Assembly (NCBI GenBank): GCA_027449965.1
Contig: DAIDKP010000026.1
Coordinates: 248,001 to 312,000 of the forward strand
Reading direction: 5' to 3'
From: Acidobacteriaceae bacterium
GTDB taxonomy: Bacteria > Acidobacteriota > Terriglobia > Terriglobales > Acidobacteriaceae
DNA length: 64,000 nt
The notes below the pieces were generated by a model that had not been told where the DNA came from, did not search any database, and saw nothing but the letters and a program-made list of their open reading frames with translations. Both the position numbers and the translations under genes were made by a program. Shown piece by piece: positions 19,263 through 51,438 of the stretch (positions are counted from its first letter, which is position 1; each line of letters starts with the position of its first letter).

Positions 19263-19361
19263 TGCGCGTTCGTGGTTTTAGACGACCGTATGTACGAGGA
19301 ATGACCAGGAATCACGATCGTTCACGGGTGGAGATGGGCAATCGTACGAGCTGAGAAAGAA

Positions 19362-21786: not shown

Positions 21787-22592
21787 GTCAGAAGCTTCAG
21801 TTTCTCGACTGCTGGATGCAGGTGGCGACCAGCCTGCTGAGTCAGGCGCTGGTGGGCGAGCCAGTGCTGAGCGAGGCATTGCCCAGACCGTTGCCGGAGG
21901 GGTCGTTTGGGTTTGTGGCGACTGTGGATGGCGAGGAGCAGGGGCGGTTTGTCATCCTGCTCGATGGCGGACTTGCCGAAGGGTCGCTGCTCGGCGACGT
22001 GCCGGATGTCCATGCTGCCTGGGGGGAACTGATCCGGGAGACAGTGGAAGCTGCCGCCGGGGATCTGCTGGCGCGGAGCGGCGCCAAATGTCAGGTTACA
22101 GCGTTTGGCCCGGCCAATGCGGAGAACAAGATTACGCGGGCCTTTCAATTGAGCGCCGGAGAGCGAAGCTGGGTGGTGCTGGTGGAGAGCGATCTGAAGC
22201 CGACCCGGATCGAGGATGCGAAGAAGGTGGAAGCGCCTGCAAAAGCGGGACAGCCAGAGCAGGCAGCGGCCCGAGCGGAAGTTCAATCGTCCGAAGACGA
22301 GCCAACCGATACCAGTATGCTCTCCGAAGGGTTGCAACTGCTGCTCGATGTGGAGCTGGAGGCGTCCCTGCGCTTCGGTTCGCGCGAGATGCCTCTGGGA
22401 GAGATTCTCGATCTTGGACCAGGTGATGTGGTGCAGCTCGATCGACACATCACCGACCCGGTCGATCTGGTGGTGGGAGACAAAATTGTGGCGCGCGGCG
22501 AGGTGGTTCTGGTCAATGGCAACTTTGGGTTGCGAGTGACCCAGGTCGCTGAGCCGCAGCGCAGACTGGAGAGTATCCGATGCCTCTTTTAG
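21783..22592 (+). CDS. fliN: flagellar motor switch protein FliN with CheC-like N-terminal domain
   Basis: C-ring protein. The last 85 residues are a canonical FliN SpoA domain (LLLDVELEASLRFGSREMPL, then GDKIVARGEVVLVNGNFGLR). Upstream, residues 1-140 form a separate alpha/beta domain resembling the CheC-like middle domain of FliM or FliY (AAWGELIRETVEAAAGDLLA), and residues 140-180 are a charged linker. At 269 residues it is twice the length of a classical FliN and closer to FliY architecture. It overlaps fliM by four bases, and the next gene starts inside its last 13 bases. Confidence 0.92.
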   Translation: MSQKLQFLDCWMQVATSLLSQALVGEPVLSEALPRPLPEGSFGFVATVDGEEQGRFVILLDGGLAEGSLLGDVPDVHAAWGELIRETVEAAAGDLLARSGAKCQVTAFGPANAENKITRAFQLSAGERSWVVLVESDLKPTRIEDAKKVEAPAKAGQPEQAAARAEVQSSEDEPTDTSMLSEGLQLLLDVELEASLRFGSREMPLGEILDLGPGDVVQLDRHITDPVDLVVGDKIVARGEVVLVNGNFGLRVTQVAEPQRRLESIRCLF

Positions 22593-23539
22593 GATCGCTG
22601 AGCGGGAAGATCAGCCAGAATGAAAGTCAGCCCGTGGGTCAGGATGCATTCACGGCGGGCGACGAAGAGCACACGCTGCGCGCGCCGGATGTTGTCTCCT
22701 CCGATGAGGTGCGCGCCGGATTCTTCTCTCGATGCAGCAACCCGAACTGCGCCACCGGATGGATCCACTTGCTGCGTCGCAGGACGGTGCCAATTTTTGA
22801 AGACGGCTGGACGTGTTCGCAAAACTGTACGCAAAAACGCATGGAGCAGGCCGTACGTCGAGAGATGGAGGGTCGCAACCGGGAGACGCGTCTGTATCAG
22901 CACAGAATTCCGCTGGGGCTGGTGATGCTGGAGCAGCAATGGATTGATGCCGGACAACTGCGGCGGGCCATCGAGGCACAGCGACGGGCCGGGGAAGGCA
23001 GAATCGGTCGCTGGCTGGTGCAGCAGGAGGGCGTCTCGGAGGCGTTGGTGGCTCGTGCGCTGGGTTTGCAGTGGAGCTGTCCGGTGGTCTCTCTGCCCTT
23101 TCATGACGGAGTTGCGATGGCTCCCGCGTTGCCGCGGCTTTTTGTGGATGCGTTTGGTGCGCTGCCGCTGCGTGTCTCGTCGGAGCGATTGCTCTATCTC
23201 GGCTTTGAGGACCGTCCTGATCCGGTGGTGGCTTTTGCCATGGAGCGCATTCTGAAGATGCGAGTCGAAGCGGTACTTGTTCCGGACAGCGAATTTCGGC
23301 AGGCGCATACGCGCATTCTGACGGTGCCATTTCCACGCGTGGAGTTGCTTGAGGTTTCCAGTGAAGCGCAACTGGGACGCGCGCTGAGCCGTGTCGTGGA
23401 AAAGGTAAAACCGGTGCAATCCCGACTGGTTCGTCTGCACGATTTTCTGTGGCTGCGCATGTGGCGCAAACCTGTTTCCACACTGCTGCACGATGCGGAG
23501 AGTATGGAAGACGTGATCTGCGCGCTGAATCAGGAGTGA
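22580..23539 (+). CDS. zinc-ribbon and MshEN/GspE-N-like protein of the flagellar operon
   Basis: A 319-residue soluble protein of undefined role. Residues 52-83 hold four cysteines spaced C-x4-C ... C-x3-C (C52, C57, C79, C83), a likely zinc ribbon. Residues 109-170 match the GspE/MshE N-terminal domain pattern: two helical motifs (LGLVMLEQQWIDAGQL from 112; RIGRWLVQQEGVSEALVARA from 141) each ending in Gln (Q134, Q164), separated by six residues. In MshE-type proteins this arrangement binds c-di-GMP, but here one motif Arg is Pro and both central Gly are replaced, so binding is a guess. The start overlaps fliN by 13 bases, so it is tightly coupled to the motor switch genes. Confidence 0.7.
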   Translation: MPLLGSLSGKISQNESQPVGQDAFTAGDEEHTLRAPDVVSSDEVRAGFFSRCSNPNCATGWIHLLRRRTVPIFEDGWTCSQNCTQKRMEQAVRREMEGRNRETRLYQHRIPLGLVMLEQQWIDAGQLRRAIEAQRRAGEGRIGRWLVQQEGVSEALVARALGLQWSCPVVSLPFHDGVAMAPALPRLFVDAFGALPLRVSSERLLYLGFEDRPDPVVAFAMERILKMRVEAVLVPDSEFRQAHTRILTVPFPRVELLEVSSEAQLGRALSRVVEKVKPVQSRLVRLHDFLWLRMWRKPVSTLLHDAESMEDVICALNQE

Positions 23540-23643
23540 GATCCAGAAACGACGCTGCGGCGAGAGCCGGTGAGTAATTCAGACGTCAGGCCCGGAAGTG
23601 TGAGGAAGGCTCGCGACAGAGGCAGGATGCGCAAACGCGAGGC

Positions 23644-23670
23644 TCATGTTTTTCCTCCTCCAGCCGATAG
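23644..23670 (+). promoter_or_regulatory. sigma-28 (FliA) promoter of cheY
   Basis: TCATGTTT, 11 bases, GCCGATAG: 6 of 8 and 7 of 8 matches to the FliA consensus TAAAGTTT-N11-GCCGATAA with the exact spacing. Transcription would start near 23677, about 75 bases before the cheY ATG. An inverted repeat (CGATAGA, three bases, TCTATCG; 23665-23681) overlaps the -10 box and start. Confidence 0.72.
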
Positions 23671-23752
23671 AGAGTCTATCGAGACGCTGGGCAAGCAATG
23701 AACCCATGCCCTGCAAAACCTGAGCGGATATTGGAGATAGAGGAGCAGCTGG

Positions 23753-24133
23753 ATGAGCGAGATTCGGGTGTTGATTGTGGATGATTCGTCGGTGATGCGC
23801 AAGATTGTCGAGCGTGCCTTGCGCCAGGCTGGATTGGATCCGCTGGTGGTGCTGGAGGCTGGCAGTGGCGTGGAGGGTCTCGATGCTTTGCGCAACAATG
23901 CTGTGCAATTGATTCTCTCCGACATCAACATGCCATCGATGGATGGATTGGAGTTCCTGCGTCAGTTGCGAGCGCAGAAGCTTGCCGATGGCGTCCCGGT
24001 GGTCATGATTACGACCGAATCCAGCGAGGAGCATGTGCGGCAGGCGATTCAGTCCGGAGCGCAGGGGTATATCCGAAAACCATTCACCGCTGAACAGGTC
24101 AAGGAGCGTGTGCTGCCGCTGATTGCAGCCTGA
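23753..24133 (+). CDS. cheY: chemotaxis response regulator CheY
   Basis: Single-domain receiver that, when phosphorylated by CheA, binds FliM and changes motor rotation. The 126-residue product has all receiver residues: acidic pair D10-D11, phospho-acceptor D57 (LILSDINMPSMDG), T87 (MITTES) and K109 (IRKPF). No output domain. Its place after the motor-switch genes and before cheX, with its own FliA promoter, supports CheY rather than another stand-alone receiver. ATG 23753 has GAGGAG upstream. No cheA or cheW is in the window. Confidence 0.92.
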   Translation: MSEIRVLIVDDSSVMRKIVERALRQAGLDPLVVLEAGSGVEGLDALRNNAVQLILSDINMPSMDGLEFLRQLRAQKLADGVPVVMITTESSEEHVRQAIQSGAQGYIRKPFTAEQVKERVLPLIAA

Positions 24134-24350
24134 TCCAAGCAGGCACAGAGCTTCCGAGGTCTGTGCGCGTAGTGTCGGTCTCTTGAGTTCTATTTTCTTC
24201 GGGCCGTGGCAGGGCGAGAGAGTCGGCAAGGCCTGTCGCGGCCCGGCTGGAAGCAGAAGATTCGAGGCTGAGAGTTCACAGCGGCAACTTTGAAGTCATT
24301 CAGGCAAGGAATTCAGACAAGCAAGCTGGAGTCGGGAGGAAGGATCGGTT

Positions 24351-24836
24351 ATGGCGCAGTCACTGCGAGAGAATCTTCAAACGGTTGCGGATCCTGTGCA
24401 TCTGCAATCCACGGTCGAAGAAGTGTTTGGAACGATGCTGGGAGCACAATGCGAGATGGTTCCCTGCACAGGCGCTGTTGCCTCAGAGACGATCACTTCC
24501 GTAGTCGGGTTTGGCGGCATCCTCACCGGGGCCTGCGTCTTTCGCTGTAACAGTGACACGGCCCTGGTGATTGCCGCGCGGCTGACGGGGATGAGCTTCA
24601 CCGATCTGGACGATACGGTCAAGGATGCGATCGGGGAGATCTGCAATATGCTTGCAGGCGCCTGGAAGGGCAAGGTGCCTGATCTTTCGGCACAATGCGG
24701 GCTATCCATTCCAGCCGTCATTACCGGAAGCAACTACAACATCCATGTGCAGGCACCCGAGTTTCGCCTGCATCACTGTTATCGTTTCGAAAGCTCTCAC
24801 TTCGAGGTCACGATCATCTGCGACGGATTGCAGTAG
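24351..24836 (+). CDS. cheX: CheX-like CheY-P phosphatase
   Basis: A 161-residue protein of the CheC/CheX/FliY phosphatase superfamily. The diagnostic helix appears as DAIGEICNMLAGAWKGKV (about residues 89-106), where the E-x-x-N pair supplies the acidic and Asn residues used to dephosphorylate CheY-P. Only one such motif is present, as in CheX, and the fold length fits. Directly downstream of cheY, it is the natural signal-termination partner. The start at 24351 is preceded by GGAGGAAGGATCGGTT. Confidence 0.88.
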   Translation: MAQSLRENLQTVADPVHLQSTVEEVFGTMLGAQCEMVPCTGAVASETITSVVGFGGILTGACVFRCNSDTALVIAARLTGMSFTDLDDTVKDAIGEICNMLAGAWKGKVPDLSAQCGLSIPAVITGSNYNIHVQAPEFRLHHCYRFESSHFEVTIICDGLQ

Positions 24837-25311
24837 TCCATCGCCGCGGCTGATGTTTCGGCCCGGCAGCTTTTACCTGGAAGCACGAACACTCAGCTTC
24901 CCGCCGGGTTCGTTTCATTCGCTGTTGCTGGAGCAGAATTTCGAGCCGAAACATTGAGATCAGAGCTTTCCAAGACATAGAAGGATCGTTCCCGACAGAT
25001 CGTCCTCAAGGGATCGTCCTCTTCTGGATCATGCCGGAAAGATCACTCCGGAAGGATCACGCCGGAAAGATCATCTCTGGTGCTGCTCCACTCTCCGTCT
25101 CCTCAGGCTCCGAGATGCCGGTCCTTGTCGGAGCCGATCCCTGGCGGCAGGCTCGGCAGGATTTCCCAGACTGCTGTTCTGCGGCTGGACTCTGCTGCGA
25201 TCCTGCCCGGCAGAGAATTCATCTCGCCATCTCTCACCTTTGAAAGCCCTCTAATCCATCGCTTCCATCTTTGGTTCTCCTGCTGCAACAGTCACGGCGC
25301 AGGAGGATGCA
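24837..25311. other. intergenic region with repeats, no supported gene
   Basis: A 475-base gap between cheX and flgF, the longest inside the flagellar cluster. No reading frame here looks coding. It contains GATCGTCCTC twice (about 24999-25020) and three 14-base repeat units at 25034-25073. I found no good FliA-type promoter, so the promoter of flgF onward remains unidentified. Confidence 0.5.
25034..25073. repeat. 14-bp tandem repeat, three copies, upstream of flgF
   Basis: CCGGAARGATCA repeated three times (25034-25045, 25048-25059, 25062-25073) with two-base spacers, giving a 14-base period. It lies 238 bases before flgF. A regulatory role is possible but not shown by anything else in the sequence. 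Confidence 0.8.
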
Positions 25312-26049
25312 ATGGATAGTGGATATTACGCTGCCTACGCCGGATATATCGCTCGAACGCAGGCTCTGGATGCGGCGGCAGACAACCTGGCCAACGCGCA
25401 GACGGTGGGATACAGGGCCGAGCGCGAGAACTTTCGCTCGGTGCTGCTCGACCCGCTGCAAGGCAACTCCCAGCTTGGTTCGACGGTCAACAATTATGGT
25501 GTTGTCCACGGTGACCAGCTGGATATGGGTCAGGGCGCGCTGACGGCGACGGGAAATCCTCTCGATCTTGCCATTCAGGGCGAAGGATTCTTTGCCACCC
25601 AGACGCCGGACGGAGTTCGCTACACGCGCAACGGCGGCTTTCATCGCAGCAACACCGGAGTGCTGATCAACGGCAGCGGTGACCCGGTGCTCTCCGCGCA
25701 ATCCAGGCCGATTGTCATTCCTCCGGGCGAGATCGCCGTCGGCGACGACGGCGTGATCTCCGTCGATGGTGGAGCGGTTGCTGTCGTGGGAGTCTTTGCG
25801 TTTCCCAAAGGTACGCAATTGACCCCGGAAGGAACCAATCGCTATCGAGCGCCGGACAAGGTGAAGACAGCGCTGGCGGCCTCGCCGGTTCATTCGCACG
25901 CGCTTGAGTCTTCCAATCAGGACACGATCACAGGAAGCATGAAGCTGATCGTCATGCAGCGCCAGGCAGAGACGATGCAGAAGGCGCTCACGATCTTTCA
26001 TCTGGACTTCAACAAGACAGCCGCCGAGGATCTGCCACGCGTCGTCTGA
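25312..26049 (+). CDS. flgF: flagellar proximal rod protein FlgF
   Basis: Rod subunit inside the periplasm. The 245-residue product has the rod N-terminal motif (QALDAAADNLANAQTVGYRA), the central segment AIQGEGFFATQTPDGVRYTRNG shared by FlgE/F/G, and a C-terminal helix ending near QAETMQKALTIF. FlgF rather than FlgG is chosen because the true FlgG follows and because the C-terminus lacks the FlgG ending. ATG 25312 is preceded by AGGAGG. Confidence 0.9.
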   Translation: MDSGYYAAYAGYIARTQALDAAADNLANAQTVGYRAERENFRSVLLDPLQGNSQLGSTVNNYGVVHGDQLDMGQGALTATGNPLDLAIQGEGFFATQTPDGVRYTRNGGFHRSNTGVLINGSGDPVLSAQSRPIVIPPGEIAVGDDGVISVDGGAVAVVGVFAFPKGTQLTPEGTNRYRAPDKVKTALAASPVHSHALESSNQDTITGSMKLIVMQRQAETMQKALTIFHLDFNKTAAEDLPRVV

Positions 26050-26054
26050 TAGGA

Positions 26055-26071
26055 GAGCCGACGATCGGCTC
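26055..26071. repeat. inverted repeat in the flgF-flgG gap
   Basis: GAGCCGA, three bases, TCGGCTC: a perfect 7-bp stem six bases after the flgF stop. There is no following T run, so it is not a clear terminator; it could stabilise the flgF mRNA end. Confidence 0.5.
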
Positions 26072-26200
26072 CTTGCCGACAGATTCGCGGATCGGCAGTT
26101 CCGCTGACCAGCAGGACCCCGGATGCAGCCGGCAGGCAGGCCGCGAAGGCAAACTGCATGGAAACAATCAGGACGCGCAGGCGAATAAGGAGAAACAAAG

Positions 26201-26989
26201 ATGATTCGAGCACTCTACACGGCAGCCAGCGGCATGATGGCCCAGCAGATGAATCTGGACACCATTGCCAACAATCTGGCCAACTCCTCCACGACCGGTT
26301 TCCACCAGCTTCGTCTGCAGTTCCAGGACATGCTTTACCAGAATCTGATCACTCCCGGCGCAGCGCAGACGCAATCGACGATCTCTGCCGGCTTGCAGAT
26401 TGGCCTGGGCACGCTGCCGGCTGCAACCGAGGTCATCATGACGCAGGGAGAGCTGAACCAGACCAACAACCCGCTGGATGTGGCCATTGAAGGAGCGGGA
26501 TTCTTTCAGGTGCAGCAGTTGAATGGCCAGATCGCCTACACCCGTGCCGGGCAGTTCCAGCTCAACAATCAGGGAACCCTCGTGACCACCAACGGTGACA
26601 TCGTGATTCCCACCATCACCGTGCCGCCCAATGCAACCTCGGTGACCATCACTCCCTACGGCGTGGTCAATGCCACGCTGCCGGGGCAGACCAATCCTTC
26701 GCAGCTCGGGCAGTTGCAACTGGCCACCTTTGCCAATCCCGGCGGGCTGCAAAGCATGGGCGGCAATCTGCTGACGCAGACTCTGGCCTCGGGCGATCCG
26801 ATTGTCGGCAATCCGGGCGGCGTGGAAGGGCTTGGCATGTTGCAGCAGGGATATCTGGAGAACTCGAACGTCGATGTGGTCACGGAGTTTGTGCAGATGG
26901 TGCTGGCGCAGCGCGCGTATGAATCGAACTCCAAGGTGATCAAGGCCGCGGATCAGATGTATTCGCAAGTCAACAACATGACGCAGTGA
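26201..26989 (+). CDS. flgG: flagellar distal rod protein FlgG
   Basis: Distal rod subunit linking rod to hook. The 262-residue product is the standard FlgG length, starting MIRALYTAASGMMAQQMNLD with IANNLANSSTTGF. It has the central AIEGAGFFQVQQLNGQ segment and the conserved end (GYLENSNVDVVTEFVQMVLA, QRAYESNSKVIKAADQMYSQ). ATG 26201 follows AAGGAGAAAC. flgA begins eight bases after the stop. Confidence 0.97.
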   Translation: MIRALYTAASGMMAQQMNLDTIANNLANSSTTGFHQLRLQFQDMLYQNLITPGAAQTQSTISAGLQIGLGTLPAATEVIMTQGELNQTNNPLDVAIEGAGFFQVQQLNGQIAYTRAGQFQLNNQGTLVTTNGDIVIPTITVPPNATSVTITPYGVVNATLPGQTNPSQLGQLQLATFANPGGLQSMGGNLLTQTLASGDPIVGNPGGVEGLGMLQQGYLENSNVDVVTEFVQMVLAQRAYESNSKVIKAADQMYSQVNNMTQ

Positions 26990-26996
26990 GGGCGCG

Positions 26997-27620
26997 GTGA
27001 GCCAGGCAAGCACGCTTCGGGAAAGGTTGTATCGGTGGGCCGTCGTAGGCGGCGGGTTGCTGCTGCTGATCTTCGCGCCGTCGGCATGGGGCGCAGCCGG
27101 AAACAACGCGAATGCGGGAAGCTCCGTCACGGCGGGTGACCATACTCAGCCGGATTGCAGCCGCATTCTGGAGGATCGAGCACTGGGACTTCGTTGGCGA
27201 TGGGTGAAGCAAAGTGGTGGACGGCCGGGCCGATGGCTTCCGATCGCCGATTCCGCTCGTCCAGTCGAGATAGCCAAGCCATCCGGATGTGCCGAGTCAC
27301 GAGGGAAAGCGGCATCCGTAGTTGCAGCCGGCACGAAACCCGGGTCGGTGACGACAGCACAGGCGAGGGTGGTTGCCATGAAGCCGGTGATCCAGGTGGG
27401 CGATCCCGTGGTGGTGATGCAAAGTCAGGGCAGTGTGTTGGCTCGACTCCCGGGCGTGGCGCTGGCTGCGGCAGCCGCGGGCACACCTCTTCTGGTTCGC
27501 CTGAGAGTCGGGAATGGTGGATTTGGGAAAGCGGCAGGTCGCATCGTCCACACGCACGCCGTGGCGCACGGGCTGGTGCAGTGGGATAGCGCGATCGAAT
27601 GGAGTGGTGCGAGCTGGTGA
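26997..27620 (+). CDS. flgA: flagellar P-ring assembly chaperone FlgA
   Basis: Periplasmic chaperone for FlgI during P-ring assembly. The 207-residue product has an N-terminal signal peptide (hydrophobic segment about residues 14-32 ending SAWGA) and a C-terminal SAF-like domain with the FlgA pattern: VVAMKPVIQVGDPVVVMQSQ, then GVALAAAAAGTPLLVRLRVG and a final AGRIVHTHAVAHG. Sequence identity is visibly low, so position between flgG and flgH carries weight. The start is GTG at 26997. Confidence 0.8.
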   Translation: MSQASTLRERLYRWAVVGGGLLLLIFAPSAWGAAGNNANAGSSVTAGDHTQPDCSRILEDRALGLRWRWVKQSGGRPGRWLPIADSARPVEIAKPSGCAESRGKAASVVAAGTKPGSVTTAQARVVAMKPVIQVGDPVVVMQSQGSVLARLPGVALAAAAAGTPLLVRLRVGNGGFGKAAGRIVHTHAVAHGLVQWDSAIEWSGASW

Positions 27621-27754
27621 GCGCCGTTCTATGTAAGGATGCGGGTGCGGAGAAACGGTTCATAGGTCCGGGTGCAAGTTGGCACATTCGGCCACGCCCG
27701 TGCGGGTACACGCCGAATCGACAGGCAAGTGTCGGCAGAGGAGAAGGAACAGAG

Positions 27755-28531
27755 ATGAGTCAGCGAATCCAATTCGGCATACTGCGCACGTTCGGAAGGC
27801 TCCGCGTGGCATCCGTGTGGACGCTCGCCTTTGTGCTGTTCGCGGCAGCAGCGCCGTCCCCGTCCTTCGCCCTGGGACACAAGAAAAAACCGGGAACTTC
27901 GGCAAAGAAGCAGACGCCGCCGGAAGAAGCGCTTTCGACCTACATCCAGCGCGTGCGAGCTGAGCATGATGCCGAGGTGCTGAATGCCGGTTCGATCTGG
28001 AGCGATCAGGGGAGTCTGGTGCGGCTGTCCAACGATGCCAAGGCCACCAAGCTCCATGACGTGATCTCGATTGTGGTCACGGAGAGTCTGGCTGCATCGA
28101 CGGACGGACAGGTGAAGAATGCGCGTGCCTCGACGTCCAACAGCGGCATCACCGGCTTGTTCGGAGCTCCCAAGCCCACCAGCACCCTGGCCAATCTGCT
28201 GGCGCAAAGTTCCTCGTCCAGCCTGGCTGCGCAAGGTCAAAGCATTACCAACTCAAGTCTGGTCACAACCTTTGGCGGCGAGGTTGTTGATCTGTTGCCC
28301 AACGGCATGATGGTGGTGCAGGCCACCCGGCAGTTGACTTTTTCGCAGCAGACGCAGGTGATTCGACTGCGCGGGCTGGTGCGACCAGAGGATGTGAACT
28401 TTCTCAATCAGGTGGACTCCTCGGCGATGACGGATCTTGAGATTGAGGTCGTGGGCAAGGGAATTGTGAATGACTCAACCTATCGCCAGAACCCCGTCTG
28501 GCGATTCCTGCAACGGATCCTGGTGTTCTGA
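27755..28531 (+). CDS. flgH: flagellar L-ring protein FlgH
   Basis: Outer-membrane ring subunit. The 258-residue product has a signal peptide (hydrophobic residues about 18-38, cleavage after SFA likely), a lysine-rich linker, and the FlgH core starting at GSIWSDQGSLVRLSNDAKAT and HDVISIVVTESLAAS, ending with GKGIVNDSTYRQNPVWRFLQ. There is no lipobox cysteine after the hydrophobic segment, whereas FlgH is normally a lipoprotein. ATG 27755 is preceded by GGAGAAGGAA. The stop overlaps flgI (TGATG). Confidence 0.92.
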   Translation: MSQRIQFGILRTFGRLRVASVWTLAFVLFAAAAPSPSFALGHKKKPGTSAKKQTPPEEALSTYIQRVRAEHDAEVLNAGSIWSDQGSLVRLSNDAKATKLHDVISIVVTESLAASTDGQVKNARASTSNSGITGLFGAPKPTSTLANLLAQSSSSSLAAQGQSITNSSLVTTFGGEVVDLLPNGMMVVQATRQLTFSQQTQVIRLRGLVRPEDVNFLNQVDSSAMTDLEIEVVGKGIVNDSTYRQNPVWRFLQRILVF

Positions 28532-30012
28532 TGACCATACGAGAGAAGATGCGAAGCGGGAGTTTGTTCGGCGCGTGGCCTGGTTTCCGGATCGTAGCCC
28601 TGCTGCTGTGCGGGCTGCTTCCGATGACGATGACGGCGCAGGCTCTGCCACAGGCTGGAGCCTTGCCACGGGCTGGAGCCTTGCCACAAACCCGAGCCTT
28701 GCCCCAGCCGCAGGCCCGAGCCTTGCCGCAGGCCCCAGGCTTGCCGCAAGCCGGAGCCGGGCCGCTGACCGGCATCAGTCAACCGCCGGCAACCGTCCTC
28801 CTTGCTGCTCCCGGCCTTGTGCCGCAGCCTGGAATCGCGCCTCAGGGCGCGCAGTACCCTCCGGCAGGTGTTGGAACCATGAGCCTGCCGCCGAATGCTC
28901 CGCCTTCAAATGTCCCGGGCAGCGCAGGCGGTGTTTCGGTGAGTTCCGATCCTCGACCAGAGCGTCGCGCTCTGGTCAAGGATGTGGCTTCGATCGAAGG
29001 GATTCGGGATAACCAGTTGATCGGCTACGGTGTGGTCGTCGGATTGCGCGGAACTGGCGATACGCAGCAGACGATCTTTCCCATGCAGACCCTGCTTTCC
29101 ATTCTTCTGCGCATGGGCGTGAATGTGCCACAGACCGGCACGTTGAGCGCTCAGAATATGCAGGTCAAAAATATGGCTGCGGTGTTCATTGAAGCGACGC
29201 TGCCGCCGTTTATCCGCTCTGGACAAAAGATTGATGTCACGGTCTCCTCTGCCGGGGATGCCCGCTCGCTGGAGGGGGGTGTGTTGCTGCTTTCCCCGCT
29301 CTATGGTCCGGACGGGCAGATTTACGCGCAGGCGGAAGGGCCTCTGGTTATCGGCGGCTATCGCATCTCTGCCGGCTTCAACACAACGCAGGTGAACTAT
29401 CCGACGACCGCACGCATACCTGGCGGCGCATTGGTGGAGCGAACCGTTCCATTTGAGTTGAAGCAGATGCGCACCGTCGATGTGGAGCTGCGGGACGCCG
29501 ACTTCCACACCGCCGAGCGCATGGCTCAGGCCATTGATGTCAGTCTGGGTGGTCCGCGCGCCCAGGTGGTCGATAGCCGCACGGTCGAACTGATTCCGCA
29601 ACCGGGCGAGAGCCTGCCGGAGTTGCTGGATCGTGTGGAATCCACCGAGATCAATGTCTATCCAAGGGCGAAAGTCGTTGTCAATGAGCGCACGGGAACG
29701 GTGGTGATCGGCGGCAAGGTGCGTCTCCAGCCGGTGCAGATTCTGCATGGCGGACTTTCGGTCAATGTGGTCACCGAGTTCCAGGTCTCGCAGCCCAACG
29801 CTTTTGGCCAGGGTACGACCGAGGTGGTGCCGCAAACCTCGGTCCAGGCCAACGACAAGCCCGTCAATCGCATCGAGCTGAAGCAGGGAGCAACTGTAGA
29901 GGATCTGGTCGACGAGTTGCAGAAGATCGGCGCAACGGCGCGGGATGTGATCTCGATTCTGCAGGCGATGAAGGCAGCCGGAGCGCTCGAAGCCGATCTG
30001 GAGGTGCTGTGA
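28531..30012 (+). CDS. flgI: flagellar P-ring protein FlgI with repeat-rich N-terminal insert
   Basis: Periplasmic P-ring subunit. The 493-residue product has a signal peptide (residues about 16-36), then an unusual insert of about 100 residues with a repeated ALPQAG-type hexapeptide, and then the standard FlgI domain from about residue 140 (ALVKDVASIEGIRDNQLIGY, GVVVGLRGTGD) to the end (VEDLVDELQKIGATARDVIS). Typical FlgI is about 365 residues, so the excess is the insert. The ATG overlaps the flgH stop and the stop overlaps flgJ, so flgHIJ are coupled. Confidence 0.95.
   Translation: MTIREKMRSGSLFGAWPGFRIVALLLCGLLPMTMTAQALPQAGALPRAGALPQTRALPQPQARALPQAPGLPQAGAGPLTGISQPPATVLLAAPGLVPQPGIAPQGAQYPPAGVGTMSLPPNAPPSNVPGSAGGVSVSSDPRPERRALVKDVASIEGIRDNQLIGYGVVVGLRGTGDTQQTIFPMQTLLSILLRMGVNVPQTGTLSAQNMQVKNMAAVFIEATLPPFIRSGQKIDVTVSSAGDARSLEGGVLLLSPLYGPDGQIYAQAEGPLVIGGYRISAGFNTTQVNYPTTARIPGGALVERTVPFELKQMRTVDVELRDADFHTAERMAQAIDVSLGGPRAQVVDSRTVELIPQPGESLPELLDRVESTEINVYPRAKVVVNERTGTVVIGGKVRLQPVQILHGGLSVNVVTEFQVSQPNAFGQGTTEVVPQTSVQANDKPVNRIELKQGATVEDLVDELQKIGATARDVISILQAMKAAGALEADLEVL
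28651..28764 (+). repeat. coding tandem repeat in flgI
   Basis: Imperfect 18-base units (GGCTGGAGCCTTGCCACR and variants) encode a repeated AGALPQ-like hexapeptide just after the signal peptide of FlgI. Units are multiples of three, so slippage would change linker length without a frameshift. Confidence 0.8.
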
Positions 30013-32901: not shown

Positions 32902-33795
32902 ATGCGTGTGAATCCGTTTTTTGTCACGAATCTGAGCAGTGCGCTGGACCAGACCCAGGCGACCCAGCAGCAACTCTCCACGGAGCTGTCCAGTGGTCTG
33001 GGCGTGACCAGCATCGGACAAAACCCAGTGGTAGCGGCTCAGAACTCCCAGTTGCTGAATCAGATTGGCATTGAAGACTCGTTCACGCAATCCTCCAATC
33101 TGGCGCAGGGGATGTTGAATGTGACGGACTCCGCACTGGGCAGCGTCGTCACTCAACTCAACGAGGCCATCTCGCTTGGCTCGCAGGGCAGCAACGGCAC
33201 GTTGAACGCCTCGCAGTTGCAAGCTGTCTCCAACCAACTGTCGGGCATTCGCGATGAGGTGCTTTCGCTGGCCAATACCAGCTATCAGGGGCAATACGTT
33301 TTTGGTGGCAGTCAGACCAACTCTCCGCCCTTCACGCTGAACACCAGCACTTCGCCGGCCACCGTCACCTACAACGGTGACAGCATCGTCAATCAGTTGC
33401 AGACACCCGACGGCCAGCCGATTGCCCTCAACATTCCCGGCAATCAGATCTTCACCTCGTCCTCAGCCAACGTCATCGGCGCGCTGAACACGATCATCGC
33501 AGACTTTGCCAACGGCAACTCCGCCGCGGGAAGTGCCGATACGGCTGCGCTGAACTCGGCGCTCAACTTTGTCAGTCAACAGCGCGTCACGCTGGATAAC
33601 TCGATCTCGCGGTTAACCACGGCGACCTCCGCGGCTACGTCTCAAAGCGCGCAGTTGACCACTGTTCAGACGAATCTGATTCAGGCGGACATTCCCGGAG
33701 TCTCCACGCAGCTATCACTGGTCAAGTCGCAGCAGACGGCGCTCATCAACGTGATTGCCGCGCTCGGTTCCGGCAGCCTCTTCGATAAACTCTGA
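32902..33795 (+). CDS. flgL: flagellar hook-filament junction protein FlgL
   Basis: Second junction protein (HAP3), flagellin-like. The 297-residue product starts MRVNPFFVTNLSSALDQTQA with QLSTELSSGLGVTS. It has the FlgL hallmark GQYVFGGSQTNSPPF at about residue 130, and the C-terminal helix near QADIPGVSTQLSLVKSQQTA. The ATG at 32902 fits the family N-terminus although the upstream AGGAGG is 12 bases away. It is the last gene of the flagellar cluster. Confidence 0.94.
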   Translation: MRVNPFFVTNLSSALDQTQATQQQLSTELSSGLGVTSIGQNPVVAAQNSQLLNQIGIEDSFTQSSNLAQGMLNVTDSALGSVVTQLNEAISLGSQGSNGTLNASQLQAVSNQLSGIRDEVLSLANTSYQGQYVFGGSQTNSPPFTLNTSTSPATVTYNGDSIVNQLQTPDGQPIALNIPGNQIFTSSSANVIGALNTIIADFANGNSAAGSADTAALNSALNFVSQQRVTLDNSISRLTTATSAATSQSAQLTTVQTNLIQADIPGVSTQLSLVKSQQTALINVIAALGSGSLFDKL

Positions 33796-36835: not shown

Positions 36836-37102
36836 GTGCTGGCAACCGCAACGAAAACAGAACTGATTGAACGCTTCCGTACCCATGACACCGACACCGG
36901 ATCTCCCGAGGTTCAGATTGCAATTCTGAGCACTCGCATCCGTGAGTTGAACGAGCATTTCAACACGCACAAGAAGGATCACGCTTCGCGTCGTGGCCTG
37001 CTGATGCTCGTCAGCAAGCGCCGTCGTCTGCTGGACTATCTCAAGGCAAACGATGCGGATCGCTATCGCGATGTCATCGCCAAACTGGGCATCCGCAAGT
37101 AA
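36836..37102 (+). CDS. rpsO: 30S ribosomal protein S15
   Basis: Primary 16S rRNA-binding protein of the small subunit. The 88-residue product has the family core ([40 protein letters not shown]). The GTG start at 36836 gives [21 protein letters not shown] -10 box at 36796-36801 is visible, but I cannot find a good -35. As in most bacteria, pnp follows, 316 bases downstream. Confidence 0.97.
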
Positions 37103-37418
37103 GCGCGAAGCATTGAAACGATTCAGTCGAGACCGGGAAGTGGTCCAGACTGCTGCAAAGATGGATACAGCAGTCCGGACCTACCTGTCGAATCTTTCTG
37201 AAGGCGAACAGCGACACGCATCGACCAGCATCAACGGGTCACAAGCCTTGAAAGGCAATCGGCCTTTAAGTGCAACAAGCCTGGATCAGTCCAAGAACCG
37301 ACTGTCCGGGCTTACTGTGCAGGTTTTTGCGGGTGGTTTCCGCTCCTCCTGCCGCGTGGCCAGTCTCCCTGTGCCTTCCCACAAGTTTCCCAAGTGAAAA
37401 AATGAAAAGAGGACGTGT
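37103..37418. other. rpsO-pnp intergenic region
   Basis: A 316-base gap with no supported gene. It contains a small hairpin (AAAGGC, five bases, GCCTTT; 37251-37267), weak as a terminator. By analogy with other bacteria, RNase processing between rpsO and pnp may occur here, but no specific site can be read. Confidence 0.4.
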
Positions 37419-39842
37419 ATGAAGCATGAAGTTACCGTTGAACTGACCGGAGGCAAGCGCATGGTCTTTGAGACCGGGCGCATCGCCAAGCAAGCTTCCG
37501 GAGCCGCGTTTGTGACCTTCGGCGAGAGTGTCGTACTGGCTACGGCTGTCGCCTCGCCTGACCCCAAAGAGGGAATTGATTTCTTCCCTCTCACCGTGGA
37601 TTACCGCGAATACGCCTACGCCGGCGGGCGCATCCCGGGTGGGTTCATCAAGCGTGAAGGACGCCCCAGCGAAAAGGAGATTCTTACCTGCCGCCAGATC
37701 GACCGGCCCATCCGTCCGCTTTTCCCGGATGGTTTCCGCAACGAAACTCAGGTCATCGTCCTGGTCATGTCCGCCGACAAGGACAACGATCCCGATGTCG
37801 TCGGCATCAATGCCGCTGGTTGCGCGCTCGCTCTCTCTGACATTCCCTTCGGTGCCACCATTGGTGCCGTGCGTATCGGTCGCGTTCATGGCGAATTTGT
37901 TGTCAATCCCACCTATGAAGAGCGCAAGATCAGCACCATGAACATCATCGTCGTCGGCCACAAAGACGGCATCACCATGATCGAAAGCGGCGCCAAAGAA
38001 GAATCGGAAGAGAATATTCTCGCCGCCATTGAATTTGCTCACGAAGAGATCAAGAAGATCGCTGCTGCGATCGATCAACTGGTTGTGCTTGCCGGCAAGC
38101 CCAAGCGTGCATTCGTCGCCCCCGTCGAGGACACCGAGTACTACAACGAACTTTTTGCCAAGGCTGGAGATCGTCTCAAGGATGCGCTGGACACCAAAGT
38201 TCACTCCAAGACCGAAAGCTACAGCCTGATCAAGGAGATCAAGGCGGAGCTGGCCAAGGATCTTCCCGCCGACGATCCGGCAGCCAAGAAGAAGCTCGGA
38301 ACCTACTACGAGCTGATGCGCGAGCGAATTTTCCGCGAGCAGGTCACCCGCGATCGCATTCGTCCCGACCGTCGCGCCTTCGACGAAATTCGCCAGATCA
38401 CCATCGAAACTGGCGTCCTGCCTCGCACGCATGGTTCTGCCCTCTTTACCCGCGGCGAAACCCAGGCGCTGGTCACCGCCACGCTTGGCACCACCGACGA
38501 CGGACAGCGGTTGGAGAGCTTTGAAGGCGAGCAGAAAAAGCCCTTCATGCTCCACTACAACTTCCCGCCCTTTTCCGTCGGTGAAGTGGGCCGCATGACG
38601 GGCGTTGGCCGTCGCGAAGTGGGCCATGGCGCGCTTGCCGAACGGGCCATCGCCGCCGTCCTGCCCAGCCCGGAAGAGTCGCCATACACCATTCGCATTG
38701 TCTCGGACATTCTGGAGTCCAATGGCTCGTCCTCCATGGCATCCGTCTGCGGTGCAAGCCTTGCCCTCTATGACTCCGGCATTGCGCTCAAAGGCGCGGT
38801 TGCTGGCGTGGCGATGGGCCTGGTCAAGGAAGGCGACGACTACGCCATCCTCACCGACATTGCCGGCGCGGAAGATCATTACGGTGACATGGACTTCAAG
38901 GTTGCCGGAACCCGCAAAGGCATCACCGCTCTCCAGATGGACATCAAGATCGGAGGCCTGACGCGACAGATTCTTCAGGAAGCAATGGAGCAGGCGCGTC
39001 GCGGACGTCTCTTCCTGCTCGACAAGATGGACGCTGTGCTGGATGGACCCCGCACCGAGCGTTCTCGTTATGCGCCCCAGATTCGTACCGTCCAGATTCC
39101 CACGGACAAGATTCGCGATCTCATCGGACCGGGCGGCAAAACGATTCGCGGCATCATCGAGCAGACCGGCGTCAAGATCGATGTGGACGATACAGGCCGT
39201 GTCAACGTAGCTTCTTCTGACGCCGATGGTCTGGCGCAGGCTCTGGCCATCATCAGCAATCTGACCGCTGTACCGGAGGTGGGGAAAACCTACCTTGGTA
39301 AAGTGGTTCGTCTGGCCGAGTTCGGCGCATTTGTTGAGCTGTTCCCCGGCACCGACGGCCTCCTCCACATCTCTGAGATCGCTGAGCATCGTGTCAAAGA
39401 GGTCAAGGATGAGCTGCGCGAGGGCGATCAGGTCATGGTCAAGGTTCTGGCCATTGAAGGCAATCGCATCAAGCTGAGCCGCAAAGCCCTCATCAAGGAG
39501 CAGAAGGCCAAGCTTGGAATCGTCGATGCGCCGGAGGCTCACGGCAGTCACGATGCGCCGGTCGAGCGCGCTCCGCGTCACGAATTTGACCAGCATCAGC
39601 CATCCTCCAACGCCAGCACCATCCTGATCGAAGGTGGTGACGACTTCGAGGAGACGGAAGAGTTCGATGAAGAGAACGAACCGAACTTCAATGTCGCCGA
39701 TGGTGCCGCTGCTCCTGCCGGAAACGGTGCAGGTCGCGCCCCTGCCGGTCCGGGAGCCAACAACCGTCGCCGCCGTCGTCGCGGTGGTCGTCCGGGTGAT
39801 CGCGGTCCGGGTGGTTCGCGCGGTCCCGCTGGTTCAAACTAA
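37419..39842 (+). CDS. pnp: polyribonucleotide nucleotidyltransferase
   Basis: Trimeric 3'-5' phosphorolytic exoribonuclease (PNPase) of mRNA decay. The 807-residue product has two RNase PH cores ([20 protein letters not shown] near residue 48 and TNFP-type [13 protein letters not shown] near residue 378), then KH ([12 protein letters not shown]-like [18 protein letters not shown]) and S1 ([20 protein letters not shown]) domains. A 110-residue tail ends in an Arg-run and RG/RGG-like repeats that could add RNA or partner binding. ATG 37419 follows GAGGA. Confidence 0.97.
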
Positions 39843-39864
39843 CTGAATCCGAACCATGGCATAA

Positions 39865-39902
39865 ACGACAACAGCCTGCTCTCATGAGCAGGCTGTTGTC
39901 GT
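39865..39902. terminator. hairpin terminator between convergent pnp and GGDEF genes
   Basis: A perfect 17-bp stem (39865-39881 with 39886-39902) around a four-base TCAT loop, 22 bases after the pnp stop. Convergent genes flank it, so it probably ends both transcripts, although no long T run follows on either strand. Confidence 0.8.
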
Positions 39903-39934
39903 TGGCGCGTGAAAACGAAACAGTCAGATCATCT

Positions 39935-41053
39935 TCAAGCTGAGATTCCTCGACGCAGTTCTTTTTCCTGATACATGCGCAGGTCGGCGGCGATGTACAA
40001 ATGTGAGGCGTCGCCGGCGTCGTCCGGATAGATCGCTGAGCCGATACTCGCGCCGATCTTCAGTTTCAGGTGATCCAGAATAAAGGGCTCTCGGAGCAGT
40101 TCCAGCAAAGAATCCGCGACAGCCATCACATCCTCGGCTCGTTTCAGGTCGGCAAGGATCACGGAGAATTCGTCACCACCTGTTCGCGCTATCAGGTCGC
40201 CATGACGAATCCGCGAGCGCATCCGATCGGCCGCTTGCTGCAGCAGCATATCGCCCACATGATGGCCATGAGCGTCGTTCACCTGCTTGAAGTGATCCAG
40301 GTCGATCTGCAGAAGCGCAATCTTTTCCCCCGTTTCCGCGCAGCGTCTAATGCAATCGCTCAGGTGACTCTGAAACCTTCGGCGATTGGCCAGTGTCGTC
40401 AGATCATCATGCAGAGCAAGATACTGCGACCGCTCAATCTGATTCTCCAGCAACAGCAGCAACATTCCCACTGCCACCACATACTTCGGCAGATTCCAGA
40501 CTTCGTTTTCAATGTGTATCGCGGGAAATTTCGTCTGGAAGACTGGACCTGCGACAAAGACCAAAGCCCATGCCAGGAATCCTCCCACCGTGATGACCGA
40601 TCCAGCGCTGATTCGGCCTTTGTAGTTGTGCCAGAAGATCAGGCAGCAGCAGAAATAAACCGTAAACAGGATTGCGTTCAATGCAAAGGTTGCATCCTCC
40701 GTGCGGGGCGGACCAAAGATCAGCAGCGATATGCCCAGCAGCAGATACAGGGTCATCACCACATACCGTGGAATACCCAGCAAGTGGCGAGGCGAAAGCA
40801 GACCGACCGTAAGCGGACCCAAGCCAATCACCACGGAAGTAGCCACAAACAGCCAATTCGGTGCATTGGGCAGCACCAGCAGAACGATATAAAACGAGAG
40901 TGGAACTCCCAGCGCAGCGGTCATCCAAAGAGAAGAGATATGACTTCGATAACGCACCGAAGCACGCATAAACTCTACCGCTGCCGCCACCAGTGAAATC
41001 AGCGTGACAGCCAAGACCGCGCTGCCCCAAAGATTGTTCTGGATCACAATCAT
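39935..41053 (-). CDS. membrane diguanylate cyclase (GGDEF), apparently missing its start because of an in-frame TAA
   Basis: Predicted synthase of cyclic di-GMP. From the ATG at 41053 the product is 372 residues: about six to seven transmembrane helices (residues 8-205), then a GGDEF domain with D250 region LLQIDLDHFKQVND, an RxxD inhibitory site (R283-D286) and the intact GGDEF at 292-296. This ATG has no ribosome-binding site and cuts a hydrophobic helix; the frame stays open upstream to a TAA at 41150-41152, beyond which the same frame continues as a 25-codon ORF with good start signals and a FliA promoter. The real gene probably spans 39935-41227, interrupted at codon 26. Confidence 0.85.
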   Translation of the reverse strand: MIVIQNNLWGSAVLAVTLISLVAAAVEFMRASVRYRSHISSLWMTAALGVPLSFYIVLLVLPNAPNWLFVATSVVIGLGPLTVGLLSPRHLLGIPRYVVMTLYLLLGISLLIFGPPRTEDATFALNAILFTVYFCCCLIFWHNYKGRISAGSVITVGGFLAWALVFVAGPVFQTKFPAIHIENEVWNLPKYVVAVGMLLLLLENQIERSQYLALHDDLTTLANRRRFQSHLSDCIRRCAETGEKIALLQIDLDHFKQVNDAHGHHVGDMLLQQAADRMRSRIRHGDLIARTGGDEFSVILADLKRAEDVMAVADSLLELLREPFILDHLKLKIGASIGSAIYPDDAGDASHLYIAADLRMYQEKELRRGISA

Positions 41054-41149
41054 GCTTGCCAGAAAGTGGATGAGGATCAGGATCCACGAAAAGAGCCACT
41101 GTCTGGAATCAGCAAACGGAGTCCCCGGAAGTTCATCGTTGTGCTGTGG

Positions 41150-41227
41150 TTAGCGACGAAGAATGGAGTAGAACGCGACGACCAAAGCCGCCATCGCCAG
41201 AACATCCGGCATTTTCGTCCACTCCAT
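41150..41227 (-). CDS. 25-codon ORF, probable detached N-terminus of the GGDEF protein
   Basis: Encodes MEWTKMPDVLAMAALVVAFY plus five residues ending in RR: one hydrophobic helix with a basic C-terminal flank. GGAG lies six bases before the ATG, and the FliA-type promoter start would be about 43 bases upstream. After the TAA the same frame continues without further stops into the GGDEF gene, encoding a hydrophilic loop (PQHNDELPGTPFADSR) and a second helix (QWLFSWILILIHFLAS). It is either the severed N-terminus of that protein or a real small membrane protein. Confidence 0.5.
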   Translation of the reverse strand: MEWTKMPDVLAMAALVVAFYSILRR

Positions 41228-41276
41228 ACCCAGCTCCAGTTTCAGCCCACCCGCGACCGCGCAGACTATCCTGTAT

Positions 41277-41303
41277 TTATCGGCTCCTCTTGATTTTTAC
41301 TTA
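41277..41303 (-). promoter_or_regulatory. sigma-28 (FliA) promoter of the GGDEF gene
   Basis: Read on the minus strand: TAAGTAAA, 11 bases, GCCGATAA. The -10 box matches the FliA consensus at 8 of 8 positions; the -35 box keeps TAA. Start of transcription would be near 41270, about 43 bases before the ATG at 41227. Confidence 0.75.
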
Positions 41304-41439
41304 CTTTTGGGAAAATGAAATAACTCTTTGGTGCGTACTTAGGTAATACCTCTGCGTGTTTTTTGAATCTGCCGCTTTGAATGACAAATGCGTAATCTAT
41401 GGCAGCTTCCAGTTTCTTACGCTTCGCACTTCGGATGCC

Positions 41440-42738
41440 TTATTCACTCACCGCTGGCTTGCCTCCAAATACATTACCCATCCGTCGAATCTGTGCGCCG
41501 ACGCCCCGTAGCTTTTCTTCAATCCGTTCATAGCCGCGATCCATGTGGTACACGCGATCCAGAATGGATTCCCCCTCTGCCACGAGCGCAGCCAGCACCA
41601 GCGACGCCGATGCCCGCAGGTCGCTGCACATCACCGCTGCGGCAGAGAGCCGAGACGATCCTTGAACGGTCGCCGTCCGCCCATCCACAGCAATATTTGC
41701 CCCCATGCGCACCAGCTCCTGCACATGCATGAAGCGGTTTTCAAAGATATTTTCCGTGATGCGCGAAACGCCCTCGGCCTGTGTGGAGAATGCCATAAAC
41801 TGCGCCTGCATATCGGTGGGAAAGCCCGGATATTCGCGCGTGGAGATATCCACGGCATGGAGTTTTTCCTCGGCGCGAACTCGAACCGAGTCTTCACTCA
41901 GAACATCGACTCGTGCGCCCGATTCTCGCAGCTTTTCGATCACTGCGCCCAGATGCGCTGGGTTGCAGTGGGTCACAATCAAGTCACCGCGGGTAATCGC
42001 GCCGGCAATCAGAAACGTCCCGGCTTCGATGCGATCCGGGTTGATCCGATGGCGCGCTCCGCGCAGCTTGTTCACCCCTTGCACTCGGATCGTCGGTGTT
42101 CCTGCACCCTCAATCTGCGCACCCATTGCGGTCAGCAGGGAAGCGAGGTCTGTGACTTCCGGCTCCTGCGCGCAGTTCTCCATCACGGTCTCTCCGTTGG
42201 CCAGCACGGCTGCCATCAGCAGGTCTTCAGTTCCCGTCACCGTGATCTTGTCAAAGAAGAGATGCGTACCTTGCAGTCGCTCCGCGCGCGCTTCCAGGTA
42301 GCCATGCTCCTGGGTAATCGTTGCGCCCATCTTTTCCAGACCCTTCAGGTGCAGGTCGATCGGACGTCCGCCAATTGCGCATCCGCCCGGCATGGCCACA
42401 CGCGCCATGCCACAGCGCGCCACCAGCGGACCCAGCACCAGCGAGCTGGCGCGCATTGTTTTCACAATCTCATATCGCGCCACCGGATCCGATAGGTGAC
42501 GGCAACTGATGCTCGTCCGATGCTGCGCGCGACCGTAGCCAAGCTCCACCTGCGCTCCCATCGACATCAGCAGTTTCTGCTCCGTCTCAATGTCGCGCAC
42601 CTGCGGAATGTTTTCCAGAATCACCTCGTCTTCCGTCAAAATGGCTGCTGCCATACACGGTAACGCCGAATTCTTTGCGCCAGATACACGAATGCTGCCT
42701 ACCAGCGGATTGCCACCGCGGACGACAAATTTATCCAT
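41440..42738 (-). CDS. murA: UDP-N-acetylglucosamine 1-carboxyvinyltransferase
   Basis: First committed enzyme of peptidoglycan synthesis, adding enolpyruvate from PEP to UDP-GlcNAc. The 432-residue product starts MDKFVVRGGNPLVGSIRVSG with the substrate-binding AKNSALP segment. The catalytic cysteine is C120 in MPGGCAIGGRP, so it should be fosfomycin-sensitive in principle. The two EPSP-like domains are full length. The ATG at 42738 matches family N-termini; an upstream in-frame start at 42783 is unlikely. Confidence 0.97.
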   Translation of the reverse strand: MDKFVVRGGNPLVGSIRVSGAKNSALPCMAAAILTEDEVILENIPQVRDIETEQKLLMSMGAQVELGYGRAQHRTSISCRHLSDPVARYEIVKTMRASSLVLGPLVARCGMARVAMPGGCAIGGRPIDLHLKGLEKMGATITQEHGYLEARAERLQGTHLFFDKITVTGTEDLLMAAVLANGETVMENCAQEPEVTDLASLLTAMGAQIEGAGTPTIRVQGVNKLRGARHRINPDRIEAGTFLIAGAITRGDLIVTHCNPAHLGAVIEKLRESGARVDVLSEDSVRVRAEEKLHAVDISTREYPGFPTDMQAQFMAFSTQAEGVSRITENIFENRFMHVQELVRMGANIAVDGRTATVQGSSRLSAAAVMCSDLRASASLVLAALVAEGESILDRVYHMDRGYERIEEKLRGVGAQIRRMGNVFGGKPAVSE

Positions 42739-42904
42739 GGGAATCGTTTTCTCCTGAACCCTCAGTGTAAATGGGCCATGCACTCAAGCCACACTGTGGG
42801 AATCGCGCAAGTCAATGCGCGTACCAGCCTTGCATGGAATGCCGAAAAGAGCACCGTCTGCGATGCCGAAAAAAGGTATCGTCCATTCCGATCGCAGCTT
42901 GGAT

Positions 42905-43891
42905 TTACAGCTCCAGCACCGTGTCTTCAATGGCGCGACGAACGTTGCCGTCGGAGCGAGCCAGGCGGCGAACCGCCTCTGGTTTGTCCACCTTCGCCTT
43001 CAGCATCACCAGCGCAATCGGCACACTTCGCCCTGCGCTTTTGATCGTATTCACGGCAGTCTCGCGATCAATCCGGCAGGCCTGCATCAGGATACGAATT
43101 CCGCGCTCCACCAGCTTGGAGTTCTGCATATGCACGTTCACCATCAGATTTTCGTACACATACCCACGCCGCGTCATGGCGCCGGTGGTAATCATGTTCA
43201 GCACCATCTTCTGCGCCGTACCGGCTTTCATGCGTGTCGAGCCGGAGACGACCTCAGGGCCGACCTCGGCCACAATCGCGATGTCCGCAGCCGCTGCCAG
43301 CGGAGTCCCATGGTTGCATGTTACCGCCGCCGTCTTCGCGCCACGCGCTCGAGCATACGCCACTGCCGCCACCACATACGGTGTGCGTCCCGATGCGGAC
43401 AGACCCACCACGACATCCTTGCGTGTCGGTCGCCGCCGCGCAATATCACGCTGACCCAGCTCTTCGGAGTCTTCATTCACCTCGACCGCCGATGCCAGCG
43501 CCTTCGGTCCACCCGCCATGATGTACTGCACCTGCCCAGGCGGCGTCGAATACGTCGGCGGGCACTCCGAAGCATCCAGTGCCGCGATGCGACCGCTCGA
43601 GCCAGCTCCCACATAAATCAGTCGCCCACCGTCGCGCAGACTCCGCGCCACCTGGTCGATCACCTGTGCAATCTCCGGCAAAGCCTTCTTCACCGCGACC
43701 GCAATCTTGGCGTCTTCCTGATTGATAATCCGCGCAATCTCGATCGCCGACTTGGTGTCGAGTCCCTGCGAAGCCTCGTTCTGGCTTTCCGTGGTGAGTT
43801 GCTGAAGAAGCGCCGCCTGATCCCGGCTGGTGGCGGCTTCGGATTTGGAACCTGTCTGCGTGGGTTCGATCATAAAAGAGTTGCTGAGCAT
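42905..43891 (-). CDS. murQ: N-acetylmuramic acid 6-phosphate etherase
   Basis: Cytoplasmic lyase that cleaves D-lactate from MurNAc-6-P during cell-wall recycling. The 328-residue product has the SIS domain with GAGSSGRIAALDASECPPTY, the catalytic ECPPTY region, and the HGTPLAAAADI-type second half, plus a small C-terminal UBA-like domain. ATG 43873 is an alternative start. It lies 67 bases downstream of the serine hydrolase on the same strand. No murP or anmK gene is visible, so the source of MurNAc-6-P is not explained here. Confidence 0.95.
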   Translation of the reverse strand: MLSNSFMIEPTQTGSKSEAATSRDQAALLQQLTTESQNEASQGLDTKSAIEIARIINQEDAKIAVAVKKALPEIAQVIDQVARSLRDGGRLIYVGAGSSGRIAALDASECPPTYSTPPGQVQYIMAGGPKALASAVEVNEDSEELGQRDIARRRPTRKDVVVGLSASGRTPYVVAAVAYARARGAKTAAVTCNHGTPLAAAADIAIVAEVGPEVVSGSTRMKAGTAQKMVLNMITTGAMTRRGYVYENLMVNVHMQNSKLVERGIRILMQACRIDRETAVNTIKSAGRSVPIALVMLKAKVDKPEAVRRLARSDGNVRRAIEDTVLEL

Positions 43892-50369: not shown

Positions 50370-51392
50370 CTATCCATGCTGCGCCGCTTCCGCTGAGATC
50401 ATGCGCGTCGCGCTCACTGCCTCAGCATCCCATCCGCGTGTATTTCGATTCGCGCTTCGAATGTGGTCCGGCCCGCGCATCCGCGCATCCTGCAGCGTCT
50501 GCTCGGCCTCGCGCAGCACCACCACCGGTGAGCGCCCCTTGCTCTCGGCAATCGCAAAACACGCGCTCAATCGAATGCTGCGACCACTCACTTCAAACGG
50601 AAGATCGAAGATATCCGTGCGCAGCCGTTCGGCCAGCAGCACTGCATTCACATTGCTGCATCCCGGCAACGCAATCAGAAATTCATCGTCGCCCAACCGT
50701 CCCAGCATGTCATAGCTTCGCAGCAGCGACTGAATCCGCTGGGCAACCCGCCGCAGCAGATCATCACACGCCTCAATGCCCAGCTCCGAATTCCAATGGC
50801 CAAAATCGTCAATATCCATCAGGATCACGCACAGTCCATGATTCATTCTCTGCACTCGATCCGTCTCGCGAAACAGAATCGAAAGAATCGCATCGCGGTT
50901 CATCGTTCCCGTCAGCCGATCACGCTCCGCCTGCAACAGCGTGCTGTCGCGCAGATGCACCAGTTCGCTGCGCAGCAGATGGATGCGTCGCAGCGCGCTC
51001 AGCCGCAGCGGCCACTGTCGCAGAATCGTATCTCTCGGCAAAACGTCGTCAACCACGCCCTCGCGAAGCCGCCGACTCCACATCGCAGTCGCGCCCTCCG
51101 TCTCGTCTTCCTCGTCGGAAACAGGCGCTGCGATGACTCCCACCGCGCTACGCTGCGCGGCTCCTGCTTCCTGCAGCGCCGCCAGCAACTGGCCGCTTTC
51201 CACCGCGCGCACTCCGCCGTCCAGCAGGATCACCGATCCGGCACGAAGCCGAGGCAGCAGGCTCAAAACTTCCGTCGCGTCCTGGGCCATCTCCAGGCTG
51301 ATCTCCTGCGATCGCAACACGATCCGCATATATTCCCGCAGCGCTTCATCATCGCTCAACAACAGCACCTGATATCGTGGCTTCTCCGGCAT
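50370..51392 (-). CDS. receiver-GGDEF protein with a GDDEF active site
   Basis: A 340-residue cytoplasmic protein: an N-terminal receiver-like domain (acidic pair SDDE near residue 13, candidate phospho-site Asp in VILLDGG near residue 58) and a C-terminal GGDEF domain. The signature loop reads GDDEF (residues 234-238), so the second glycine is replaced by Asp; metal-binding Asp of LMDIDDF and the RxxD inhibitory site (RSYD, five residues before the loop) are retained. It may be a weak cyclase or a c-di-GMP receptor. ATG 51392 follows GGAGGA; GTG 51422 is excluded because a FliA-type -10 box overlaps it. Confidence 0.85.
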   Translation of the reverse strand: MPEKPRYQVLLLSDDEALREYMRIVLRSQEISLEMAQDATEVLSLLPRLRAGSVILLDGGVRAVESGQLLAALQEAGAAQRSAVGVIAAPVSDEEDETEGATAMWSRRLREGVVDDVLPRDTILRQWPLRLSALRRIHLLRSELVHLRDSTLLQAERDRLTGTMNRDAILSILFRETDRVQRMNHGLCVILMDIDDFGHWNSELGIEACDDLLRRVAQRIQSLLRSYDMLGRLGDDEFLIALPGCSNVNAVLLAERLRTDIFDLPFEVSGRSIRLSACFAIAESKGRSPVVVLREAEQTLQDARMRGPDHIRSANRNTRGWDAEAVSATRMISAEAAQHG

Positions 51393-51411
51393 ACTCTCCT
51401 CCGCACCACGC

Positions 51412-51438
51412 TTATCGGTCACTCTAAGAAATTCCTTA
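51412..51438 (-). promoter_or_regulatory. sigma-28 (FliA) promoter of the receiver-GGDEF gene
   Basis: Minus strand: TAAGGAAT, 11 bases, ACCGATAA. Matches are 5 of 8 and 7 of 8 to the FliA consensus with exact spacing. The start would fall near 51405, just before the GGAGGA ribosome-binding site of the ATG at 51392. Confidence 0.65.

Follow-up and report, generated by a model that had tools for sequence, protein, structure and literature searches.

The locus described here raises a simple question: how is a diguanylate cyclase gene to be read when a stop codon interrupts it near its 5′ end? Translation of positions 39935-41227 on the reverse strand of the window (the whole stretch of DNA analysed, 64,000 nucleotides from an Acidobacteriaceae bacterium) gives one frame of 431 codons that reads MEWTKMPD...ILRR*PQHN... 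and contains a single internal stop in addition to the terminal stop. The internal stop is a TAA at codon 26 (41152-41150, reverse strand). Codons 1-25 (41153-41227, reverse strand) carry the N-terminus of the family with its first hydrophobic helix, as judged from translation, hydropathy and alignment, and the frame beyond the TAA (39935-41149, reverse strand), with the membrane part and the GGDEF domain, is open to the terminal stop. Walking the frame downstream from the TAA, 96 nt (32 sense codons) without ATG, GTG or TTG are crossed before the ATG at 41053 (41051-41053, reverse strand). A sequence-only reading had described this split after codon 25 and the stretch of 32 codons, both of which are borne out, and had offered a recent nonsense mutation, stop readthrough or a leader peptide as explanations. 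Its description of ATG 41053 as annotated does not stand, since this ATG is the start of a mechanical 372-aa ORF taken from a program-made ORF list rather than from annotation. The gene is single copy, and the other match in its own genome is one 51-base piece at 78%.

Judged from its domain and motifs, the gene is that of a conserved diguanylate cyclase with a predicted hydrophobic N-terminal part. The 372-aa ORF matches PF00990 with an E-value of 6.1e-43 and 146.8 bits against a curated cut-off of 23.8 (residues 213-367 of the ORF; window 39953-40417, reverse strand), and the GG(D/E)EF motif with an RxxD five residues before it is present in 19/19 aligned loci, in agreement with the earlier statement that the GGDEF domain and its RxxD site are intact. 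A simple hydropathy scan of three relatives found about nine hydrophobic segments in the protein. The product ended by the TAA retains only the first of these, and a start at Met59, which is the ATG at 41053, would remove the first and most of the second, so the remark that this start cuts off a hydrophobic helix was also correct. The gene thus shares the GGDEF domain, the GGDEF and RxxD motifs and several preceding hydrophobic segments with PF00990 diguanylate cyclases that have an N-terminal membrane part, but differs from them in its frame, broken at codon 26, and in the part of the 372-aa ORF before the GGDEF domain, which matched no Pfam family.

The relatives show what an uninterrupted form of the gene looks like. 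We searched for the 372-aa ORF in 100 genomes, its own and 99 others, and followed the frame upstream in 23 loci (L003-L025). Of these, 19 were aligned: our locus (L003) and, for comparison, 18 more, of which 13 belong to the genus and 5 to the family. L017, which is cut by a contig end, and the more distant L023, L024 and L025 were omitted from the alignment. The frame is open in all 18 other loci, each with the opening motif MDWTKIPD or a variant of it at the position of ATG 41227 and with a start codon there or one codon away (GTG in two loci, and Met one codon earlier in two); these starts were assigned from the conserved motif and not from annotation. Comparison of orthologues at the position of the TAA had been set as a check beforehand, and 18/18 have a sense codon there: Glu in the seven nearest, and D (1), N (7), H (1), G (1) or R (1) in the remaining loci. 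Orthologues with a sense codon at the site and an upstream start are what a recent nonsense mutation should leave behind. Met stands at the position of 41053 in 11 of the 18, this position is internal in every one, and no orthologue starting at its equivalent, which the sequence-only reading had named as evidence against itself, was found among them. The nearest relative (L004, 92% identity) shares the length of 431 codons and has no interruption; a single base separates its codon at the stop position from TAA, and its residues are identical to those of our locus at 21/25 positions before the stop and 25/25 after it. The interrupted frame is therefore more than chance, in that the codons before the stop evidently encode the family's conserved N-terminus. 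A scan of genome_contigs kept at least 80 loci, nearly all matching the GGDEF part only and in other phyla, which were not used further; the best among the matches listed was an Acidobacteria MAG with 49% identity over residues 140-364.

Signals for translation initiation favour the same start. A GGAG lies at 41237-41234 (reverse strand), six bases 5′ of ATG 41227 as claimed earlier, and the anti-SD energy is -5.6 kcal/mol for this ATG versus -1.5 kcal/mol for ATG 41053; at the corresponding start in the seven nearest relatives it ranges from -5.6 to -7.3 kcal/mol. The earlier claim that 41053 has no ribosome-binding site is therefore upheld, and with the position internal in all relatives a start at 41053 is not supported. 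These data bear directly on the suggestion of a regulatory leader peptide, encoded by the 25-codon ORF, with the enzyme starting at 41053. The short ORF does have a ribosome-binding site and a promoter match. The same 25 codons, however, are fused to the enzyme in 18/18 other loci, where they form the family's own N-terminus and not a separate ORF, and the proposed enzyme start has no ribosome-binding site; we find the suggestion hardly credible. Some in-frame codons further 3′ have better anti-SD scores (for example TTG 40681, -9.5). Weak initiation may occur at such internal codons, and products begun there would lose much of the membrane part.

To ask how old the stop might be, changes in the codons after it were assigned to branches with L005 as outgroup, and 36 ambiguous differences were dropped. 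The branch to our locus carries 33 synonymous and 16 nonsynonymous changes and the sister branch 32 and 9 (Fisher p 0.35). Assuming a 3:1 site ratio, a two-rate mixture fit placed 0.08 of our branch in the unconstrained class (range 0-0.22). The codons downstream of the stop thus look as if they are still constrained on this branch. The gene has the same 431 codons as its nearest relative and no other internal stop, so further disruption is absent and constraint has at most been relaxed recently. The branch counts disfavour an old pseudogene, and together with the mixture fit they leave three options: the stop arose recently, it is not real, or it has no effect on a product that continues to be made.

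The last of these possibilities includes programmed or regulated readthrough of the stop to produce the full enzyme. An open and apparently constrained frame after the stop is consistent with readthrough, and a study of nonsense-mutated Shigella cyclases raises it there as a possibility (PMC11327459). Here the TAA is found in 0/18 other loci, so the stop is not conserved in relatives, and no UAA-reading tRNA (anticodon UUA) is present among the 39 tRNA genes read by ARAGORN from 40 RF00005 candidates in an assembly that is 94.85% complete; the one remaining candidate, at a contig end, was not confirmed. The search for a readthrough signal in the RNA used Rfam only, and no match at gathering score was obtained within 37000-43000. 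Programmed readthrough is not supported by these results, and we consider it very improbable.

We conclude that a conserved diguanylate cyclase gene, which starts at ATG 41227 and is probably transcribed by FliA, most likely carries a recent single-base nonsense mutation at this locus. Directly observed are the frame and start of the relatives, the one codon that interrupts our frame, the open remainder of that frame and the conserved match to the promoter. From these we infer that translation would start at ATG 41227 on a transcript made probably by FliA, and that a single-base substitution at codon 26 would end it after the first hydrophobic helix. The substitution would be real in the organism and would remove most or all of the enzyme; small amounts of a shortened form may still arise by leaky initiation at an internal codon. 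Of the three explanations first offered, the nonsense mutation is the one that gains from the 18/18 sense codons and the downstream constraint, whereas readthrough and a leader peptide lose by the 0/18 stops and the family N-terminus. The gene model is also corrected: the family start is at 41227, and a call at 41053 conceals the nonsense codon as well as the loss of the helix.

Downstream constraint would be equally expected, however, if the gene were intact, and an error has to be weighed against a mutation. The TAA could have arisen as an artefact of sequencing, consensus calling or binning, or come from a minority strain, with the gene intact in the organism. Consistent with this, the codon of the nearest relative is a single base from TAA, the remaining frame is open and looks constrained, and the species is represented by one assembly of 30 contigs, in which a fixed mutation, a consensus error and a minority-strain variant look alike. 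We looked for other interrupted genes as a control, in sampled stretches that covered 713,597 bases of the same genome and 795,034 bases from the nearest relative, with coding-like pairs chosen by third-position changes. A first version, with stops in 10/42 and 12/44 pairs, was set aside because of shadow ORFs and over-long starts. After filtering, 171 of 712 hits were kept, 16 of them with a stop on our side, and in the reverse direction 171 of 728 were kept, 14 with a stop on the side of the relative. Sorted by eye, the cyclase is alone among the 16 in showing a clear conserved start and N-terminus ahead of the stop, and such breaks therefore do not seem frequent in the assembly; most of the other flagged cases, by the same sorting, resemble over-long starts, C-terminal tips or shadow ORFs. 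The control is loose, and six other flagged ORFs (81 to 536 aa), separated from the cyclase by eye only, have at least 18/25 residues identical on both sides of the stop. It mildly favours a real, isolated mutation, and we give an artefact an appreciable but minor share of the probability.

A real stop could also be tolerated, with low-level internal initiation or readthrough yielding a cyclase whose N-terminal membrane part is altered; this overlaps with the nonsense mutation described above, as the stop is real in both. A precedent exists in Shigella flexneri, where dgcE, dgcQ and dgcN carry nonsense mutations before the GGDEF domain and c-di-GMP is still produced, and where the authors considered internal starts as well as readthrough (PMC11327459). 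The likeness to our locus is the stop codon ahead of an intact GGDEF domain. For dgcQ, Table 1 of that paper gives a stop at residue 56 followed closely by a Met at 59, and c-di-GMP was measured there; here 32 codons lie between stop and Met. Because nonsense-mutated Shigella cyclase genes can still make c-di-GMP, residual activity is conceivable here. We nonetheless rate a tolerated stop as unlikely. If true, the mutation would adjust a c-di-GMP source linked to the flagellum and not abolish it. The locus adds one more example to a known class, and the nonsense codon most likely represents ordinary microevolution or error rather than a novel mode of decoding. Listings and abstract openings retrieved for Acidobacteria, FliA and diguanylate cyclase apparently contain nothing on this gene.

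Transcription of the gene was considered from a match to the FliA (sigma-28) type promoter, TAAG-N15-GCCGATAA, at 41303-41277 (reverse strand), in line with the promoter that had been placed about 50 bases upstream; its last base is 49 nt before the A of ATG 41227. This is the sole exact match in the genome. With one mismatch allowed, the genome has 7 matches versus 11 for a reversed-pattern control, and only the exact match therefore stands out. A one-mismatch scan of 332 kb gave 5 sites, and three shuffles gave 4, 4 and 2; near matches are thus weak proof by themselves. The match is exact in 7/19 loci, those of the window and its six nearest relatives, with between two and five mismatches in each of the remaining 12; among the seven exact loci the spacer is 15 letters long (16 in L006) and variable in sequence. 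The locus thus has consensus boxes at a spacing of 15-16 nt that are kept in relatives, exactly so only in the six nearest, and a FliA gene in the genome. That gene is inside the window (match at 19894-20556, 244.6 bits against a cut-off of 189.6), clustered with FlhB, FlhA, FliM and FlgI, and a one-mismatch FliA-type site lies 181 nt before a flagellin match outside the window. These are features in common with FliA-dependent promoters, of which this match is a candidate. We suggest that the diguanylate cyclase gene is probably transcribed by FliA and thereby flagellum-linked, and the presence of the match at such a gene, kept in the nearest relatives, suggests that c-di-GMP and the flagellar regulon are connected in this group.

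The flagellar genes FlhB, FlhA, FliA, FliM and FlgI occupy 15874-30012 of the window, and a Flagellin_N match lies at about 32929-33318. The seven loci to which the exact FliA-type match is confined come from genomes of about 2.9-3.4 Mb; it is lacking in L010, whose genome belongs to the same genus and measures 3.1 Mb, and in the other 11 loci. Recruitment of the gene to the flagellar regulon may have happened within this genus. The nearest loci share a conserved element, TTAC...ACCAAAGA (41325-41346, reverse strand), which lies 5′ of the promoter match. It has one match in the genome at up to one mismatch, and its ACCAAAG is present in 7/8 nearest loci, with one base different in L009. The element forms a weak dyad in some relatives and is possibly the site of a regulator. 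The window contains a second GGDEF-domain gene at 50370-51422 (reverse strand), whose motif is GDDEF. At its start is a FliA-like site, TAAG-N15-ACCGATAA (51438-51412), which is identical in the nearest relative and, one-mismatch sites being no rarer in controls, is only suggestive of the same kind of transcription.
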